From Chloroflexota bacterium (GTDB lineage Bacteria > Chloroflexota > Dehalococcoidia > GIF9 > AB-539-J10): a DNA stretch of 64,000 nucleotides. Below the pieces are notes generated by a model. That model did no database searches and was not told where the DNA came from. It saw only the letters and a list, made by a program, of their open reading frames with translations. A program made the translations under genes and the position numbers. The stretch is from assembly GCA_013388845.1 (NCBI GenBank), contig JACAEN010000042.1, positions 1-64,000 on the forward strand, read 5' to 3'. Of this stretch, positions 41,158 to 48,957 are shown in pieces; positions within the stretch are counted from its first letter, which is position 1; the number at the start of each line of letters is the position of its first letter.

Positions 41158-41910
41158 CTAGCTTTGATTGCGCAGCTTTTCTAAAGTAGCATCGGAAAAA
41201 TCAATATTGGAGAAAACATGCTGGACATCATCCAATCCCTCTAGCTCATCGAGGAAATTCAGGGCTTGAATTGCTTTGTTTTCGTCCAGCAATACCGGCG
41301 TCTTAGGTGTCAGCGAAAGCTCCGCTGAAATCACATGGTTTTTCTCTTCAATAGCCTTCCTTACCTTTTCCAAATCCTGCGGTTGTGTGTAAATCTCCAC
41401 AAAATCCTTTCCGGTCTTAACATCTTCAGCCCCGGCATCGATAGCTCGGAGCACTATTTCTTCGGCATCCGAGCCATTGCTTTCCACAGTGATGACTCCT
41501 CTACTTTCAAAAAGCCAGGAGACACAACCACTCTCACCAAGATTACCCCCATGGCGTGTAAAGAGACGGCGCACATCCTGAACAGTGCGATTACGATTAT
41601 CGGTCAAGGCTTCCACTAAAACTGCTATCCCACTTGGCCCATAGCCTTCGAATGTCACCTCAGTTAAGGCCGATGCATCAGCTCCGCCGCTACCCCGCTT
41701 TATCGCTCTCTCGATATTCTCTAAAGGCATGTTATTATCACGGGCTTTCTGCACTACCAAACGTAATCGGAAATTACTTTCCAAACTAGGTCCACCCTGT
41801 CGCGCCGCAATCGTGATTTCCCGAGCCAGCTTGGTAAATAGCTGCCCGCGCCTGGCATCGGCTACTCCCTTCTGCCGCTTAATCTGTGCCCACTTAGAAT
41901 GTCCTGACAT
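41158..41910 (-). CDS. yebC: YebC/PmpR family protein
   Basis: A 250-residue member of the YebC family, known as a transcription regulator and, in recent work, as a translation factor for polyproline stretches. The N-terminus MSGHSKWAQIKRQKGVADA and NMPLENIERAIKRGSG near residues 54-69 are diagnostic. It is the first gene of the yebC-ruvC-ruvA operon. A -10-like TATAAT on the minus strand lies at 42012-42017. Confidence 0.95.
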   Translation of the reverse strand: MSGHSKWAQIKRQKGVADARRGQLFTKLAREITIAARQGGPSLESNFRLRLVVQKARDNNMPLENIERAIKRGSGGADASALTEVTFEGYGPSGIAVLVEALTDNRNRTVQDVRRLFTRHGGNLGESGCVSWLFESRGVITVESNGSDAEEIVLRAIDAGAEDVKTGKDFVEIYTQPQDLEKVRKAIEEKNHVISAELSLTPKTPVLLDENKAIQALNFLDELEGLDDVQHVFSNIDFSDATLEKLRNQS

Positions 41911-42297
41911 TGCTATCCTTTATGCCATTTTACCACTGCCCCTCCTAAAAAGGAAAGCAGCTTTTCATGTCGCAAACAACTTGATGGCATCAGCACCATC
42001 ATGCTAAGCCTATTATAGCGGGTAAGTCCTGTGTTAAGTGTGTCACCGGAAGGTGGCATAAACTAGCTGTAAGCTAGTCGCTCGCAGGGGCCGCTTTCTC
42101 ATCTCCCAAAATCTCGTATCAAGCTCTACCACACACAGTTACATTTAATCTCTATAATCCGTCCCCAGCTTCGCTCACATTGCCCTCGTTGCCTCATTGC
42201 CTTGCGAGAGGCAAGCACGAGCTTGCCCAATATTGTGCGGGTGTGATTAGCAACTAGAATATAAGGAGAGGGGGATAAGTATTCAACTTGGGCTGCC
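41911..42297. other. Intergenic region without gene
   Basis: About 390 bases with no convincing reading frame. It has a minus-strand TATAAT at 42012-42017 upstream of yebC with only a poor -35, and small hairpins (actagc-tgtaa-gctagt near 42062-42078; gtcacc-ggaa-ggtggc near 42042-42057). No known RNA was recognised. Confidence 0.5.
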
Positions 42298-42483
42298 TCA
42301 GCCAGTTTCTTTGCGTTTAACGTCAGCGGTGGTTGGCTTTACTCGCTTTCGAGGCTGCGAGTAATGCTCTTCGAAAAGTTTTCTTATAAAAGCTCGCGAT
42401 TCCGCGATGTCCTCCGCACCGGGCACCAAAGAAGTGCGCTTCGGTAGCGCGTTCCGTACTTGTTGCCAAGAGTTGACTGCCAT
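42298..42483 (-). CDS. 61-residue protein coupled to Clp-fold proteinase
   Basis: Start ATG 42481-42483 follows ggagggttagg and lies one base after the stop of the upstream proteinase gene, so translation is coupled. The product begins MAVNSWQQVRNALPKRTSLV, has a helical middle (DIAESRAFIRKLFEEHY) and a basic tail (RKRVKPTTADVKRKE). I recognise no family. A nucleic-acid- or protein-binding partner for the proteinase is a guess from the position and charge. Confidence 0.55.
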   Translation of the reverse strand: MAVNSWQQVRNALPKRTSLVPGAEDIAESRAFIRKLFEEHYSQPRKRVKPTTADVKRKETG

Positions 42484-42484
42484 C

Positions 42485-43384
42485 CTAACCCTCCCTTTTT
42501 TTCGGTTTCGAGCATGGTTCCTGCTCTTCGGCAGGAGACACAAAACCGACCAGTTCATCTACCGACTCCCCAATATATTTTGCTGCTTTGCTATCCTCTT
42601 TGCTCAGCAGGCTCACGTTTAACCCTAGCTCCTTGGCCTCTTCGTAGTCAATGACAAACCCGTGGGATGGGTAAGACCAGACTATCCTATTAATTATGCT
42701 TTCAATATCGTCGCTTTGCCTGCCCGCGTATGAGTATCGTCCCATCACGCGTCTGCCGTACTCTTCACCCACAGCTAGTATCCGCCTGTACTCGCCTAGA
42801 TCCAAAGGCCTTACCTGTTGGTATAGTGGTGTTATTACAATCGATACAAATTGCCGAGCTTCCTCTAGGGCTTCTCTAACAGTCAAGGAAGAACGCTGCA
42901 GAATCATCTTAACCGCTAAATCTAGTGTTTCCATTGCGTATTGTCTGAGATATTCCAAGGCCTTGAATGCGTCTAGCGCTGACATAAATGCCCCGCTTTT
43001 TCGCGGGTCAGGAATTTGCGCATCCAACGGGCCTAGTTCAGCTGTCCTAGTCAAACATATCTCATCTGCTCCAAGACACAAAAAAGTAGCAGCGCTCTTC
43101 GCATAATCCGGTACCACCACTCGCAATTTCGACGTGTGATCGCGCAGAAAGTTTAGTAGTTGGTATGTAACATCGATGTCCCCGCCAACGGAATCAAGCA
43201 AAATATCTAGTGTTTGCAACTTGTCTACTGTCCATTGAGCGCAGATATCGCTTACCAAACCCTCAACCAGCGAATTTGGACTCACAAGAGCAAAAACCCT
43301 CGACTTCCGTCGAGTTTCAAGCTCCTTTATGGCCTTCTCCACACTCTCCGGAACCGGATTTGGGGACAACCTAACGAAACTCAT
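42485..43384 (-). CDS. SDH-family Clp-fold serine proteinase
   Basis: A 299-residue protein with the ClpP/crotonase fold of the SDH_sah family (related to SppA). LDILLDSVGGDIDVTYQLLNFL near residues 59-80 forms the oxyanion region. VVPDYAKSAATFLCLGADEI near 94-113 carries the probable nucleophilic Ser in KSAAT, and ELGPLDAQIPD follows. It lacks a signal peptide, so it acts in the cytoplasm or at the membrane face. It lies 99 bases downstream of the restriction enzyme gene on the same strand. Similar proteinases appear in mobile or defence regions, but a role here is inference. Confidence 0.8.
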   Translation of the reverse strand: MSFVRLSPNPVPESVEKAIKELETRRKSRVFALVSPNSLVEGLVSDICAQWTVDKLQTLDILLDSVGGDIDVTYQLLNFLRDHTSKLRVVVPDYAKSAATFLCLGADEICLTRTAELGPLDAQIPDPRKSGAFMSALDAFKALEYLRQYAMETLDLAVKMILQRSSLTVREALEEARQFVSIVITPLYQQVRPLDLGEYRRILAVGEEYGRRVMGRYSYAGRQSDDIESIINRIVWSYPSHGFVIDYEEAKELGLNVSLLSKEDSKAAKYIGESVDELVGFVSPAEEQEPCSKPKKREG

Positions 43385-43483
43385 CTTGATTTTTTAATAT
43401 TAGCCCCTACACGCCAATTTTGCAAGGTTTGAAGCCGTTGGGAACGAGAAGGTGGTACCGGCTCAGCCCGGACAATATCCCTT

Positions 43484-46400
43484 CTACTTTACAACCTCTT
43501 GCCAGAGTTGGTGGAGGAGGCGCTGGCGGAGTTTGAGGTCGAGTATGGAGCCAAGGTAATCTTCGAAGACTTCGTCTATCTTTCGCTTTAAGCTTTCTAA
43601 TTCGGGGACGATTTCTTCCAAGTAAGCTTCATCTTTGGGTGTCTTGACGCTGTCCAATCCAGCTTCAAGCCAAACCTTGAGATAACGGGCTTCCGTTTCT
43701 GAGCCACAATCTATGTGTTCTCTGCCTGAAGAAAGCCGCCAGCCAAAAAGTTCCTGCTCTAATTTAACTTCACCCGAAACCTTGGGCAAGCTCCGGCTGC
43801 GCAAAGACTTGTGGGACAAAATCTTCTCTCGATAAAACTTCCCCAGGGTATCATCGCCAAGCTTGTCCATTACCGTCTTCACCAGAAGGTCAATATCTAT
43901 TCCTTCCTTAGTCTTTCGCCTCTTGCCCAAGCTTTTAGCCCTCTCAATTCGGGACTTCACCAAATCAACTACCGCTCGATAGACCTCAATCTGCTCCTCA
44001 TCAGTGAGTCCCAGAATCTCGCCCATCACGATTTTGTCCAGCTCCCTTCGGTCAGGCTTGACCTTGTCTAAGGAGACCTCTTCAGTGACAGAAGCACCAA
44101 GTTCGGAGAAAATTGGGGCGATCTTCACCTTGCTGATGTTCTCAGAAGCTTCCTTAAGCTCTTTCATTTGACGCTCAGTGAGTTTAGAAGGGTCATAAAT
44201 ACGAATGTCTTCGACCATCCAAACATCGAGGTCTAAGGGCCCTCCGCCACCTCCAGGTTGTCTTCCGCAAAGCTCAGCAAAAAGGGCTGATACAGTGCTA
44301 TTTAATTGTGCGCAAATCCCTTTAGCTACTGCTCTATTCTTAATAGAGATTCCGTAAAAGCTTTTATTTAAGTAATATTCAAATTGATTGAGCAAGACAA
44401 AAAATCTTTCCCTGAACCGCTCTGGAAATCCTACGAAATTAGCGATTCCTTCTCCTAAATCGTACCACCTTTCCCTTGAAGCGCAGGTAGGGCGGAGGTG
44501 ATAGCCCTTGCTCTCGCCCTCCCGAATGTATTTGAGAACACTAGTTCCTTTTAAATCCTTCCTGTCTTTGTGAATCACCAGCACTCGATATTTCAAGTCT
44601 TTAGGTTTGACTGCAATGGATTTACATTCCCGGGGGCTTTTGATGACATAGTTAGGTATCCAGTTTCCCTTCTCATCCTGGTGCATCCAGAATTCCCTCT
44701 CGATTCCTCTCCGCTTTATCTCCTCCTCAGTTAGATAGAAAAATTCGTTAGCCCCGGTAGTGAAGCCACGCCTTACCTCGGCGATTTCTTTCAGGGGCAC
44801 TAATTTCCCCTTGCCCCTCTCGAGTATCTTGAAGAATATCTCCGGCGCCCTCAGGTATTTGCCCCACTTGGCACCAACATATTTCCCACATTCTTTATCA
44901 AATCCTTCTTCCCACAGTTCCTTTTGTGACTTGGGGAAAATCCTCAATTCTTCATTTTGGTAAAACTCAGAATGAGCCATAATAGTCTTTATCAGCTTGT
45001 CAATTTCCTTTAGCCGCTCAACTTGCGCTTGCCACATGTCCTGAGCGGGTGGGATGAAATAACTCAACGGTTTAAACAAGTAGACGAAGCGGACGGAGTT
45101 CTCGTCCCGCTCTTTTCTATCTTTGCATTTCTCAAGAATGACGATGCAGGTATTAATATCGGCTTCCTCAAACCACCTCTCCACCTTGGACTCGATGATA
45201 GCGATGATTTTATAGTTATGGAGAAAGAATTCCTGAAGCCCCTTGCCATAGTCCACATCCAGCCAGGAATTGGATACAATGAAGCCAAAGCGGCCACCAT
45301 CCTGGAGGAATTTTGTCCCATGCACAAAGAAGTAGGCGTGGATACCCGCTCTCTTTGAGATTTCAGCGATTTTCCTTCCCTTAATACCCTTAAGAGCTTT
45401 GTCTATGAGCCCTTCTTTATATTCCTTCACTTCGGGGGCAATTTCTGGCATCTCCTCCTGGCGGGTATACGGCGGATTACCTACGACGCAATGAAACCAG
45501 CGGGGATACGTAACTTCTCTCTCCTTTACGCCTAGAGTCTTTGCTCTAGCCCTTCGCCATTCGTCGGGTAACTCAAAGCCGCCTTCGGTACTCAAGAGGT
45601 TGAAGAAGTCCTTTTGAAGGATATTGGGATAGTTTTTATCCACACTCAAATCCTGGATAGCCAAGTTTATGGTGGATAGGTGAGCGGGAAACTTGGCAAT
45701 ATCGTTGCCCCAGAGAGTTTCCAAGATTTGTTCGTGCTTTAGCCTCTGGCTCATCAGCTTCTTGTGCTCATAAGCTCTCACCAAAAATGTGCCGGCGCCA
45801 CAGGCAGGGTCAAGGACTTTGTCGTCCTCATGCCTCAGGCAAAACTTGAGAATGATGTCCACAACGTCAGGATTGGTGAAGTATTGACCAAGGTTATGTC
45901 GCTCATCTTGAGGGATAAGCCCCTCAAAGACTCTACCGATAACATCGTAGCCAAGTGTGGAGAAGTCATATTGCCGCAGAATATCCACCAACTCCCTTAT
46001 TTCTTTGACTACACCTTCTTCATCAGGAAAAGCGATGGTATCAATGAAATCTGTGGTGTAGATTGTCTCATAGTCTATCTTGAGAACACGATTAAAATAG
46101 CCTTGAAGAGCTGACTGCAATATGGAGCCCTTGGTGAGGCTGGCCGGAACTTCTAAGGGGTCGAGTTCGTAGGGACGCTTAGCCTGGAGCACGTTGTAGA
46201 ACAGGATTTTGTTGACCAAGAGATAAGCAGTCTGCCTTGCCGCTTTATCAAAGTCTTGGGATTGCCAGGCAAAGCTCCAGCCCTGGGATATGAACCACTT
46301 TCTAAGCTCTTTAGCAAACGTGTTATCTTTGTGGCAGCGATTATCAATTATTGTAGTGTAATACCTTGAAAGCCTTCTTATCTTATCCTGAAGCCTGTAA

Positions 46401-46972
46401 ATGAGTAATTCGTCAATGGCTTGCTTGGGCTTGGCTTTCTTGCCTGAGTGGACCTCATATAGATCGGAGAGGAAGCGCTCCAGCCCAGAAATGATGCTAT
46501 TCTTATATCTTGGTTCCTCTATGAGGTCTAAATTCTCAATTTGGGAAAGGAAATATTTATCCTGGATTTGTTCCTCTAAAGGTCTTAGGCTATTGACCCT
46601 CTCGGTATCAAACCAAATGAGATGTTGGAAATTGGAAGTGGCAAAGTATTTAGCCCCCCTCTTGGTAGCTTTCTTCCTCGCTGGCTCTTTGAGTTCGTCC
46701 TCGTCAAAGGGGTCAAAGTAAGGCTGTTTTGTCTCAATAACGCAGATGACATTCTCACTGGCGGGACTTTCAAACAGGATTATATCCACCCGTTTTCTAT
46801 CACCTTCTTGCGTTGTTTCCACCTCAGCTTGACCCAAAGGCAAATTTTTATCCTTGATGACGTCGTTCATCCACTCAGCAACCTTGGCAGCACAAGTCCA
46901 CTCTGTCTTATGAATAGCGGTGCCGAACGGACTGGGGATTCGCCTTTTAGCACTAAGCTTGGACTTCTTCAC
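43484..46972 (-). CDS. Type IIG-like restriction-modification enzyme (Eco57I family)
   Basis: The 1162-residue single chain has an N-terminal PD-(D/E)xK-like nuclease region (RVDIILFE near residue 57 and CVIETKQ near 77). A helical connector follows. The adenine methyltransferase has DPACGAGTFLVRAYE near 388-402 as the SAM motif, preceded by LGQYFTNPDVVD, and VVGNPPYTRQEE near 492-503 as the catalytic NPPY. A target-recognition-type C-terminal half begins near 690 (AEVRRGFTTGANEFFYL) with PGGGGGPLDLDVWMVEDI near 870. It probably cuts unmodified DNA and protects host DNA by adenine methylation at the same site. It overlaps the small RadC-like gene by 20 bases. Confidence 0.88.
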   Translation of the reverse strand: MKKSKLSAKRRIPSPFGTAIHKTEWTCAAKVAEWMNDVIKDKNLPLGQAEVETTQEGDRKRVDIILFESPASENVICVIETKQPYFDPFDEDELKEPARKKATKRGAKYFATSNFQHLIWFDTERVNSLRPLEEQIQDKYFLSQIENLDLIEEPRYKNSIISGLERFLSDLYEVHSGKKAKPKQAIDELLIYRLQDKIRRLSRYYTTIIDNRCHKDNTFAKELRKWFISQGWSFAWQSQDFDKAARQTAYLLVNKILFYNVLQAKRPYELDPLEVPASLTKGSILQSALQGYFNRVLKIDYETIYTTDFIDTIAFPDEEGVVKEIRELVDILRQYDFSTLGYDVIGRVFEGLIPQDERHNLGQYFTNPDVVDIILKFCLRHEDDKVLDPACGAGTFLVRAYEHKKLMSQRLKHEQILETLWGNDIAKFPAHLSTINLAIQDLSVDKNYPNILQKDFFNLLSTEGGFELPDEWRRARAKTLGVKEREVTYPRWFHCVVGNPPYTRQEEMPEIAPEVKEYKEGLIDKALKGIKGRKIAEISKRAGIHAYFFVHGTKFLQDGGRFGFIVSNSWLDVDYGKGLQEFFLHNYKIIAIIESKVERWFEEADINTCIVILEKCKDRKERDENSVRFVYLFKPLSYFIPPAQDMWQAQVERLKEIDKLIKTIMAHSEFYQNEELRIFPKSQKELWEEGFDKECGKYVGAKWGKYLRAPEIFFKILERGKGKLVPLKEIAEVRRGFTTGANEFFYLTEEEIKRRGIEREFWMHQDEKGNWIPNYVIKSPRECKSIAVKPKDLKYRVLVIHKDRKDLKGTSVLKYIREGESKGYHLRPTCASRERWYDLGEGIANFVGFPERFRERFFVLLNQFEYYLNKSFYGISIKNRAVAKGICAQLNSTVSALFAELCGRQPGGGGGPLDLDVWMVEDIRIYDPSKLTERQMKELKEASENISKVKIAPIFSELGASVTEEVSLDKVKPDRRELDKIVMGEILGLTDEEQIEVYRAVVDLVKSRIERAKSLGKRRKTKEGIDIDLLVKTVMDKLGDDTLGKFYREKILSHKSLRSRSLPKVSGEVKLEQELFGWRLSSGREHIDCGSETEARYLKVWLEAGLDSVKTPKDEAYLEEIVPELESLKRKIDEVFEDYLGSILDLKLRQRLLHQLWQEVVK

Positions 46973-47267
46973 GGTCTTTTAACACCTCGTTTACGATTCG
47001 TCGGGCGATTTCGAAGGCGGCCGCGATACGGATAATCTTGGTATCGCCAAGCCCTTTTATATCCAAGAGCTTTTCTAAAGGCTGGTTAGCCATGCCCTTA
47101 AAGCCGCCAAACCTTTGCAAAATCTCCTCGGCAATCCTTTCCGCTGGCTTGCCTTTAATCCCCGGAGCAACGAGGATGGACAGAAGCTCGGCATCGGTCA
47201 ACGCTTCCGCACCAAGCTCTCTGAGCTTGCCACCGGGGTGCTGCCATTTTTGTGGCTTGCTATTCAT
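46953..47267 (-). CDS. Stand-alone RadC N-terminal (UPF0758 HhH) domain protein
   Basis: At 104 residues it aligns by eye with residues 10-95 of the full RadC at 11752-12441. It has PGGKLRELGAEALTDAELLSILVAPGIKG, then KGMANQPLEKLLDIKGLGDTKIIRIAAAFE with the helix-hairpin-helix GLGDTK. The JAB metal-binding half is absent. There is no sign of a decayed 3' part: the stop lies inside the start of the restriction-modification gene, as a 20-base overlap. This suggests a selected small partner, perhaps a DNA-binding one, rather than a broken radC. Confidence 0.85.
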   Translation of the reverse strand: MNSKPQKWQHPGGKLRELGAEALTDAELLSILVAPGIKGKPAERIAEEILQRFGGFKGMANQPLEKLLDIKGLGDTKIIRIAAAFEIARRIVNEVLKDREEVQA

Positions 47268-47416
47268 GTTTCCACTCTTTCAGTGAAACGCGCTGTAATA
47301 AAGGCACAGCTAAACCTGAGTATATTTTACCATCATATAGAGATGTTTATCTCTAACAAGGGTTGCACTATAAGAACGTGTTCTTAAGCTCCGAGGCTGT
47401 CCCCGAAGGGGGAACT

Positions 47417-47516
47417 CTAAATCCTAAGCACCAAGTCCCAAATGCCGATTTCGTCCCGACAGTATCGCGACAACAGCGAAATTCAAAAATCAAATGACAA
47501 CCCAAAACACAGAAAA
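47417..47516. repeat. AT-rich dispersed repeat
   Basis: aaatcctaagcaccaagtcc and attcaaaaatcaaatgacaa are relatives of the arrays at 7195-7345, 10141-10215 and 48803-48900. No gene is visible in 47268-47627. Confidence 0.5.
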
Positions 47517-47569
47517 TGTAGTGCGAGGCTTTAGCCTCGTGCTGCACGACCTTAAAAGGTCGCACTACA
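47517..47569. repeat. 53-bp double-hairpin element with inverted termini
   Basis: Perfect 10-bp terminal inverted repeats (tgtagtgcga and tcgcactaca) enclose two hairpins, cgaggc-ttta-gcctcg and cgacct-taaa-aggtcg. The form is like a tiny MITE or a REP-type element that could fold as a cruciform. Confidence 0.7.
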
Positions 47570-47590
47570 ATCGTGTTTAAAATTTTGCCA

Positions 47591-47629
47591 CAGAGATTGC
47601 CACGCACCTTTCAGGTGCTCGCAATGACT
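47591..47629. repeat. Palindromic repeat unit at 3' end of mtnA
   Basis: agattgccacgcacctttca followed by ggtgctcgcaatgac is a member of the same family as 131-205, with a different central loop. It touches the mtnA stop codon. Confidence 0.6.
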
Positions 47630-48674
47630 ACGAAGAGCCAGAGCCCATCTCTTTTAGCCCTTTTTTGTAAGGTTCCTTTATTATGCCCTTCTCGGTGATT
47701 ATGGCGGTTATATAACTATGGGGAGTGACATCGAAGGCAGGGTTGGCGGCTCTTACGCCTTCGGGAGCAATGGGCACTCCCTGGATATGAGTCACCTCCT
47801 CAGGGCTGCGCTCTTCGATGGGGATTTTGTCTCCTGAGCTTAAGGAAAGGTCAATAGTGCTGGTGGGAGCAGCGATATAAAAGGGGATTTTATTTTCTTT
47901 AGCCAGCACTGCCAGAGTATAAGTGCCAATTTTATTGGCAACATCGCCATTGGCAGCAATCCTGTCGGCGCCCACAATGACACAGTCTATCTTCCTTTGC
48001 TGCATAAAATAGCCAGCCATGGAATCGGTAATCAAAGTCACCGGGATACCCTCTCGCTTCAGTTCCCAGGTAGTGAGTCGGGCTCCTTGGAGAAGGGGAC
48101 GAGTTTCTGTGACAAACACGCTCAGCTTCTTTCCCTGTTCCTTAGCGGCTTTGATTATACCCAGGGCAGTGCCATAGCCGGCGGTAGCTAAAGGACCAGT
48201 GTTACAGTGAGTAAGCACAGTGAAACCATCCCTGATAAACTCAGCTCCGAGCTGGCTGAGCTTCTTGGTGGCGGTTAATTCTTCCTGATGAATCCGCTTG
48301 GCTTCATTGATAAGCGACCTTTTCATTTCCGCAATGCTACCTCCCCGGGCAGCTTTCTCCATTCTCTTGATAGCCTGAAAAAGGTTGACCGCAGTAGGTC
48401 GGGAGGCAGCAAAGGTTTGCAGGACCCGATTCAATTGGACGAGAAACTCATCCTTGCTGGCTGTTTCGATACCTGATGCCCCCAGAGCTATGCCGTAGGC
48501 AGCAGCCACCCCGACGGCTGGTGCCCCGCGAACCTTCATTTCCTTAATGGCCAGAGCTACATCGTGGTAATTATCCAAGTTGACGAAGATTTGTTCCCAA
48601 GGAAGCTTGCTCTGGTCCAGTATCCTTAGCTTGCCATCAAGCCATTCTATCGCTGTAGGTATTCCCGATTGCAT
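47628..48674 (-). CDS. mtnA: S-methyl-5-thioribose-1-phosphate isomerase
   Basis: A 348-residue enzyme of methionine salvage that isomerises methylthioribose 1-phosphate to the ribulose form. Motifs include RGAPAVGVAAAYGIALG near residues 50-66 and LTHCNTGPLATAGYGTALG near 155-173, with catalytic Cys. VGADRIAANGDVANKIGTYTLA near 236-257 carries the catalytic Asp. No other methionine-salvage gene is adjacent. The Shine-Dalgarno sequence is weak. Confidence 0.95.
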   Translation of the reverse strand: MQSGIPTAIEWLDGKLRILDQSKLPWEQIFVNLDNYHDVALAIKEMKVRGAPAVGVAAAYGIALGASGIETASKDEFLVQLNRVLQTFAASRPTAVNLFQAIKRMEKAARGGSIAEMKRSLINEAKRIHQEELTATKKLSQLGAEFIRDGFTVLTHCNTGPLATAGYGTALGIIKAAKEQGKKLSVFVTETRPLLQGARLTTWELKREGIPVTLITDSMAGYFMQQRKIDCVIVGADRIAANGDVANKIGTYTLAVLAKENKIPFYIAAPTSTIDLSLSSGDKIPIEERSPEEVTHIQGVPIAPEGVRAANPAFDVTPHSYITAIITEKGIIKEPYKKGLKEMGSGSS

Positions 48675-48751
48675 CAGGATTAGTATAATCTAAAGGCTCG
48701 AAATAAAGGAAGCTTTATCCTCGTTCGGTACCTTAGCAATACATCCTTTTC

Positions 48752-48900
48752 TGTCATTGCGAGGAGCCCCGATGAATCGGGGCGAGGAAGCAATCTCGGA
48801 AAGGAAAATCCTAAATCCCAAGCACCAAGTACCAATGCTCAAAACGTTTAGGATTTTGAATTTCGATATTCGAATTTGTTCGGATTTTGGAATTTGGAAC
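48752..48900. repeat. Repeat-filled divergent intergenic region
   Basis: A palindrome at 48752-48799 (tgtcattgcgaggagccccg, central gatgaatc loop, aagcaatctc) is followed at 48803-48900 by an inverted AT-rich array (atcctaaatcccaagcacca against gtttaggattttgaatttcg and ggattttggaatttgg). A partial palindrome (gattgcttcgtcccgacgag) is at 48911-48942. No gene is present in 48675-49042. Confidence 0.65.
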
Positions 48901-48957
48901 TTAGCCAATGGGATTGCTTCGTCCCGACGAGTCGGGGCTCAGGATGGTAAAATAAAC

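Follow-up and report, generated by a model that had tools for sequence, protein, structure and literature searches.

The window analysed here, a stretch of 64,000 nucleotides from a Chloroflexota genome of 1.38 Mb in 52 contigs whose named relatives are Dehalococcoidia, contains a 5.7-kb interval between mtnA and yebC that is occupied by exactly four genes, all read as open reading frames (ORFs) on the minus strand (Table 1). They encode, in this order, a standalone N-terminal domain of the RadC family (RadC-N), a type IIG restriction-modification enzyme, a Clp-fold serine proteinase and a small basic protein. The RadC-N ORF overlaps that of the enzyme by 20 bases, 99 bases lie between the enzyme and the Clp-fold gene, and one base separates the latter from the last ORF. 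This layout was confirmed as given in the initial annotation, together with its domain assignments (UPF0758_N without JAB, Eco57I-type IIG enzyme, SDH_protease and a 61-aa ORF without a family). The region described there as repeat-dense (47400-48950) contains mtnA; what stands of the description is that the non-coding DNA on either side of this gene carries a few repeats of 18-49 nt and one hairpin. The four-gene block is an insert made up of two unrelated modules.

Table 1. Features of the occupied mtnA-yebC site and its flanks, in window coordinates
Feature	Position	Strand	Basis
mtnA (IF-2B/MtnA family), conserved left flank of the site	47628..48674	-	Pfam IF-2B, 9e-97; flank in sister genomes
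Occupied insertion site, mtnA (upstream) to yebC (downstream)	41911..47627		Empty in G042, G034 and G024
Inverted repeat AGAGATAAACATCTCT, operator-like, upstream of RadC-N	47339..47354	-	Read in the sequence
RadC-N, standalone (HhH)2 domain of the RadC/UPF0758 family, 104 aa	46953..47267	-	Pfam UPF0758_N, 1e-15
Class A type IIG restriction-modification enzyme, 1162 aa, GTG start	43484..46972	-	PADLOC, Pfam
N-terminal PD-(D/E)XK nuclease domain (D63, E80-x-K82)	46433..46972	-	Invariant residues, PDB match
N6-adenine methyltransferase domain (DPACGAGTF, NPPY)	45077..45949	-	Pfam; motifs near-invariant across class A
Target-recognition block, residues about 840-960, exchanged between relatives	44093..44455	-	Identity drop in 21 class A enzymes
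SDH-type Clp-fold serine proteinase, 299 aa	42485..43384	-	Pfam PF01972, 50.2 bits (cut-off 31.3)
Basic protein behind the proteinase, 61 aa, pI 10.4	42298..42483	-	No relative found
yebC/TACO1, conserved right flank of the site, then ruvC, ruvA and PPDK	41158..41910	-	Pfam

RadC-N scored 58 bits against the Pfam model UPF0758_N (cut-off 27.1). Neither Pfam nor NCBIfam detected a JAB/MPN domain in it, the ORF ending before JAB, and its scores against full-length RadC families stayed below the cut-offs (74.3 bits vs 180 and 60.5 vs 133.85). AlphaFold2 returned a confident, all-helical (HhH)2 model (pLDDT 88.8), to which the closest PDB folds were the HhH domains of XPF, MutY and NusA, none of them below E 0.001; by sequence, the only solved structures matched were the HhH repeats of topoisomerase V and a designed helical protein. 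The fold is HhH, no helix-turn-helix family was matched, and the pI is 9.05. HhH domains mostly show no sequence preference in binding DNA, and they are rarely sequence-specific regulators. The protein is 38% identical to the host genome's own RadC, and the standalone RadC-N genes form a group of their own with an almost invariant FKGMANQPL stretch. The possibility that the insert had interrupted a radC gene and left RadC-N as its 5' half was set aside, as standalone RadC-N genes are far more alike across phyla than they are to full-length RadC; it is also disfavoured by the separate full-length radC that RadC-N genomes keep. A phage or plasmid origin was rejected as well: no RadC-N match was found in phages, and plasmids yielded only full-length RadC. 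One standalone relative, 43% identical, lies on a viral contig (L163:7956-8273), with no restriction enzyme seen nearby.

The 1162-aa enzyme matched the PADLOC model REase_MTase_IIG (7.9e-53) and the Pfam families N6_Mtase (1.3e-21), Eco57I (2.9e-19) and M_Eco57I_C. A nuclease, N6-methyltransferase motifs and a target-recognition domain are all found in the same chain, as in type IIG. The N-terminal 330 residues were modelled as a nuclease domain (pLDDT 84.1) with type IIG BpuSI as the best PDB match (E 2e-4, prob 1.00), and D63, E80 and K82 are invariant in 23 enzymes of the same class (class A). Over residues about 840-960, identity among 21 class A enzymes is 20-36%, compared with about 60-80% on both sides, and this local drop marks a target-recognition block exchanged between relatives. 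The enzyme of L103 shares this block with the window's enzyme (about 73% identical there) and perhaps has the same target. Enzymes of the type IIG family methylate self-DNA and cut unmodified DNA; from this family knowledge, the window's enzyme should methylate its own DNA and cut DNA that is unmodified. Against BREX, DISARM and MADS models the methyltransferase scored far below the curated cut-offs, and the insert contains no other core gene of these systems.

Turnover of cargo at the mtnA-yebC site

The site is empty in three congeneric genomes (G042, G034 and G024), which have 130-260 bases between mtnA and yebC and share the gene order homocitrate-synthase-like gene, mtnA, yebC, ruvC, ruvA, PPDK. 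The same interval holds RadC-N, a IIG enzyme of another class (class B) and a weakly HicA-like 81+64-aa pair in G028, and a 957-aa Eco57I/TaqI-type enzyme with a DUF3800 gene in G040. Across the genus its contents are nothing, three different IIG enzymes or other genes. Since sister genomes have it empty, with class B or with a third enzyme, mtnA-yebC is a turnover site for defence cargo in the host genus. A visible trace of enzyme replacement is preserved in G040, where a RadC-N stump (about 30 first codons, containing a stop codon and showing 83% identity to L092; L263:8003-8093) lies directly behind mtnA, in front of the third, unrelated IIG enzyme; the empty sites showed no such stump. Loci compared within the genus were L262, L265, L268, L263 and L069. 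Given both recognition-block exchange and enzyme replacement, specificity changes at two levels, that of the block and that of the whole enzyme.

The 299-aa protein matches the Pfam family SDH_protease with an E-value of 2.4e-13 and scored 66 bits against the NCBIfam equivalog NF047768, under the cut-off of 250. It is probably an active protease, since S97, D121 and H241 are invariant in ten relatives. The 61-aa ORF belongs to no Pfam or NCBIfam family, and the small ORFs behind other SDH genes differ from it. All four genes had been proposed to form one defence module in which the protease pair acts as an effector or as a control that prevents self-damage. The compact row on a single strand would suit such a system, as would the invariant Ser, His and Asp and the presence of protease relatives in multiubiquitin E1/E2 operons, but among the 84 genomes surveyed in the host order the protease lies beside a class A enzyme in no other genome. 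Its relatives in the order lie elsewhere and do not exceed 29% identity (40% over short stretches), and the best one in a 301-genome sample of Chloroflexota, 42% identical, has a different context. Moreover, the slot behind the enzyme is filled by a HicA-type pair in sister genomes (a HicA pair in G037), which suggests that this slot takes interchangeable cargo. We regard a single four-gene system as very improbable and already largely refuted; protease and 61-aa gene are a separate cargo of the same site, unrelated to the enzyme module. In other genomes, protease relatives were found in multiubiquitin E1/E2 operons, on a prophage-like E. coli plasmid, on small plasmids or alone, and none in viral contigs. 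SDH-type Clp-fold proteases stand in multiubiquitin E1/E2/JAB operons at L176:2302-6256, L179:4434-7107 and L185:2478-5777, and may be an unstudied part of multiubiquitin systems.

Pairing of RadC-N with restriction enzymes across genomes

The 84 genomes of the host order contain 14 standalone RadC-N genes, the window's included, and all 14 adjoin a IIG enzyme. RadC-N lies directly upstream of 10 out of 10 class A enzymes (at least 57% identity; those other than the window's are 57-87% identical to it) and of four out of four class B enzymes (at least 84% identity), which are 1078-1080 aa long and resemble class A only in the methyltransferase core, at about 33% identity. To avoid circularity, a converse search was run with the enzyme alone as query in 396 Nitrospirota genomes. 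RadC-N was found within 1.5 kb upstream of all nine class A relatives at least 58% identical, 5'-truncated at two of these loci, and in none of the fetched flanks of 16 distant enzymes (identity 33-44%, or 51% along a partial stretch for one), the flank being short for a few at contig ends. As it is conserved in other genomes, the linkage of RadC-N to the IIG enzyme is far beyond chance, and the two are a real conserved pair. The initial annotation had the enzyme as a defence gene; a restriction-modification locus is supported, with RadC-N as its genuine partner, and the conservation of genes together elsewhere that it sought was borne out for RadC-N with the enzyme and failed for the protease with the enzyme.

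A GTDB-wide scan of 85,000 species with a RadC-N alignment gave 116 relatives, of which the best 80 loci were read; these span about 16 named phyla, the labels being approximate because the majority of the genomes are metagenome bins. Among these 80, a restriction system follows RadC-N on the same strand in 61 of 70 readable loci, the contig ends too early in 10, and nine have no restriction system. One of the nine (L144:5987-7009) has kept RadC-N and an antitoxin/HicA-like pair intact, and only two ends of its class A enzyme are left after an internal deletion. The enzymes behind RadC-N are class A in 45 loci and class B in 11, the other five systems being type-ISP-like, TaqI_C-type, methyltransferase plus DpnII/BanI-like endonuclease (twice) and ResIII-type, at least six enzyme types altogether. 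Where RadC-N and enzyme are directly adjacent, 38 of 40 pairs overlap by 4-74 nt, with starts taken from the longest ORF.

Orphan RadC-N genes without a class A enzyme occur in deltaproteobacterial genomes (L093, L148, L158, L161 and L162). That of L093 stands directly behind a small HTH_17 gene, and in several orphans the usual C-terminal tail is short, altered or lost. It should be borne in mind that such orphans, and enzymes behind truncated RadC-N, call for caution: neither partner would seem to depend strictly on the other. The enzyme may be able to do without RadC-N, as two of the nine Nitrospirota enzymes have a truncated copy and the third enzyme of G040 has no intact one.

Exchanged cargo and the role of RadC-N

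The RadC-N tree (66 rows, 78 codons, weakly supported) carries no signal of enzyme class. Enzyme category changes 20 times on this tree vs 21.4 in shuffles (range 18-23), A/B alone 11 times vs 10.0, and host phylum 19 times vs a shuffled mean of 37, which is strong clustering. The RadC-N nearest to the window's, itself of a class A locus, belongs to a class B locus (90% DNA identity), and L063 and L064 have near-identical RadC-N cores with unrelated enzymes. Within the mtnA-yebC site, too, closely related RadC-N genes are followed by class A in one genome and class B in another. The suggestion that RadC-N guides the nuclease is weakened by these results, and an enzyme-specific guide appears unlikely, since the same RadC-N serves unrelated enzymes.

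The same results bear on the possibility that the enzyme has RadC-N as a genuine DNA-binding subunit, whose (HhH)2 domain would clamp the nuclease on DNA in trans as that of XPF does in cis. The obligate pairing with two enzyme clades, the overlap of the genes and, in Chloroflexota, C-terminal tails that set directly coupled class B RadC-N apart from class A are consistent with a subunit. Such a protein would, however, hardly be expected to serve unrelated enzymes with a near-identical core, to lack an enzyme-class signal or to stand ahead of a separate MTase/REase pair and a ResIII-type protein. Furthermore, in 14 class A/B loci RadC-N and enzyme are 440-1480 bases apart, with other genes, mostly toxin-antitoxin, between them. 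We consider a subunit unlikely. The intervening genes that could be identified are of toxin-antitoxin type (PBECR2/DUF4258 with DUF2283, PHD-like, ParE, nucleotidyltransferase/HEPN and HicB); that of L131 looks like a DUF3800 protein. Toxin-antitoxin pairs lie between RadC-N and enzyme in L088, L100, L101, L106, L118, L126 and L143.

Promoter elements of the type TTGAC...TATAAAAT were found just 5' of RadC-N in 12 loci with different cargo, and from their recurrence RadC-N is predicted to carry its own promoter. The inverted repeat of the window is perfect (arms AGAGAT and ATCTCT around AAAC); in relative L085 it reads AGAGGTAAATACCTCT, with a matching change on both arms, and in L083 it has one mismatch, the comparison covering three sequences only. 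The DNA common to paralogous loci within one genome is mostly RadC-N with at most about 60 bases upstream, and usually stops near codon 90 of RadC-N. Partial RadC-N copies flank the cassettes in L106, L112, L134 and L145. Another possible explanation is that the importance of RadC-N lies chiefly in its DNA: it would be a leader that brings a promoter, and its conserved coding sequence would be the homology arm for the exchange of restriction and toxin-antitoxin cassettes between copies and genomes. The shared DNA, the fragments around cassettes, the recurrence of promoter elements together with RadC-N and the first codons retained in G040 ahead of a new enzyme all fit an arm of this kind, but purifying selection on the protein itself is strong (median dN/dS 0.053, median pS 0.82, pN 0.14), synonymous sites being largely free and protein changes suppressed. 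A role chiefly as DNA is, in our view, rather unlikely.

We favour RadC-N as a generic accessory or regulator, a biochemical role that we infer. The chromosomal insertion site between mtnA and yebC holds a two-gene restriction-modification module, the protease pair being separate. Its first gene, a freed RadC N-terminal (HhH)2 domain, would lead the transcript and be translationally coupled to whichever gene comes next, in the window one for a complete single-chain type IIG enzyme with a BpuSI-like nuclease, an N6-adenine methyltransferase and an exchangeable recognition block. RadC-N is the constant part, followed by six or more types of restriction enzyme and by many toxin-antitoxin pairs; the data show directly the pairing, the gene overlap, this constancy, the exchange of enzymes and the purifying selection. 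Beyond this, RadC-N would bind DNA without sequence specificity and act generically on the cassette. Most likely it would hold down or time the expression or activity of the cassette, so that a newly arrived enzyme is kept from damaging the host. We put this account as a whole slightly short of an even chance. A wider proposal, possible and advanced here only tentatively, is that RadC-N with its own promoter constitutes a leader platform found across phyla, with one restriction or toxin-antitoxin cassette giving way to another in the position behind it. The protein would act generically on the expression, self-cutting or exchange of the cassette, and would represent a class of restriction-system companion not described before. 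The favoured generic role, the subunit and the homology arm are not mutually exclusive.

Comparison with known systems

Full RadC occurs in polyvalent proteins of mobile elements (PMC5512222), and RadC/ArdB antirestriction modules have been listed in mobile elements (PMC12458937). A full-text search of open-licence literature found no publication on RadC-N paired with restriction enzymes. In uncultured bacteria of about 16 phyla, cassettes of restriction and toxin-antitoxin genes are marked by a conserved companion that is independent of the enzyme, and FKGMANQ can serve as a search handle for such systems. The mtnA-yebC site offers a natural record of restriction-system turnover, with an empty state and three enzymes. 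The function of the RadC family is disputed, and RadC-N provides a testable lead to the solo function of its HhH half.

The N-terminal (HhH)2 domain is common to RadC (UPF0758) and RadC-N; the latter lacks JAB/MPN and is found in restriction loci. RadC-N resembles the C proteins of type II restriction-modification systems in being a small, presumably DNA-binding protein whose gene comes first and overlaps the next, but C proteins are helix-turn-helix operator binders, whereas RadC-N is an HhH protein tied to no single enzyme type. The proteinase belongs to the same fold family as other SDH-type Clp-fold proteinases (PF01972 / NF047768) and has the invariant Ser, His and Asp; in the window it is solitary, and elsewhere such proteins stand in multiubiquitin operons. 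BpuSI and the Eco57I/MmeI-like type IIG enzymes share with the window's enzyme the single chain of PD-(D/E)XK nuclease, N6-methyltransferase and recognition block, the block being exchanged between relatives. Unlike them, the clade of the window's enzyme is always preceded by a standalone RadC-N gene, and we know of no RadC-N-like partner for BpuSI or Eco57I/MmeI-like enzymes. The enzyme is of an ordinary restriction kind; what is unusual is the conserved RadC-N leader with its swappable restriction and toxin-antitoxin cargo.
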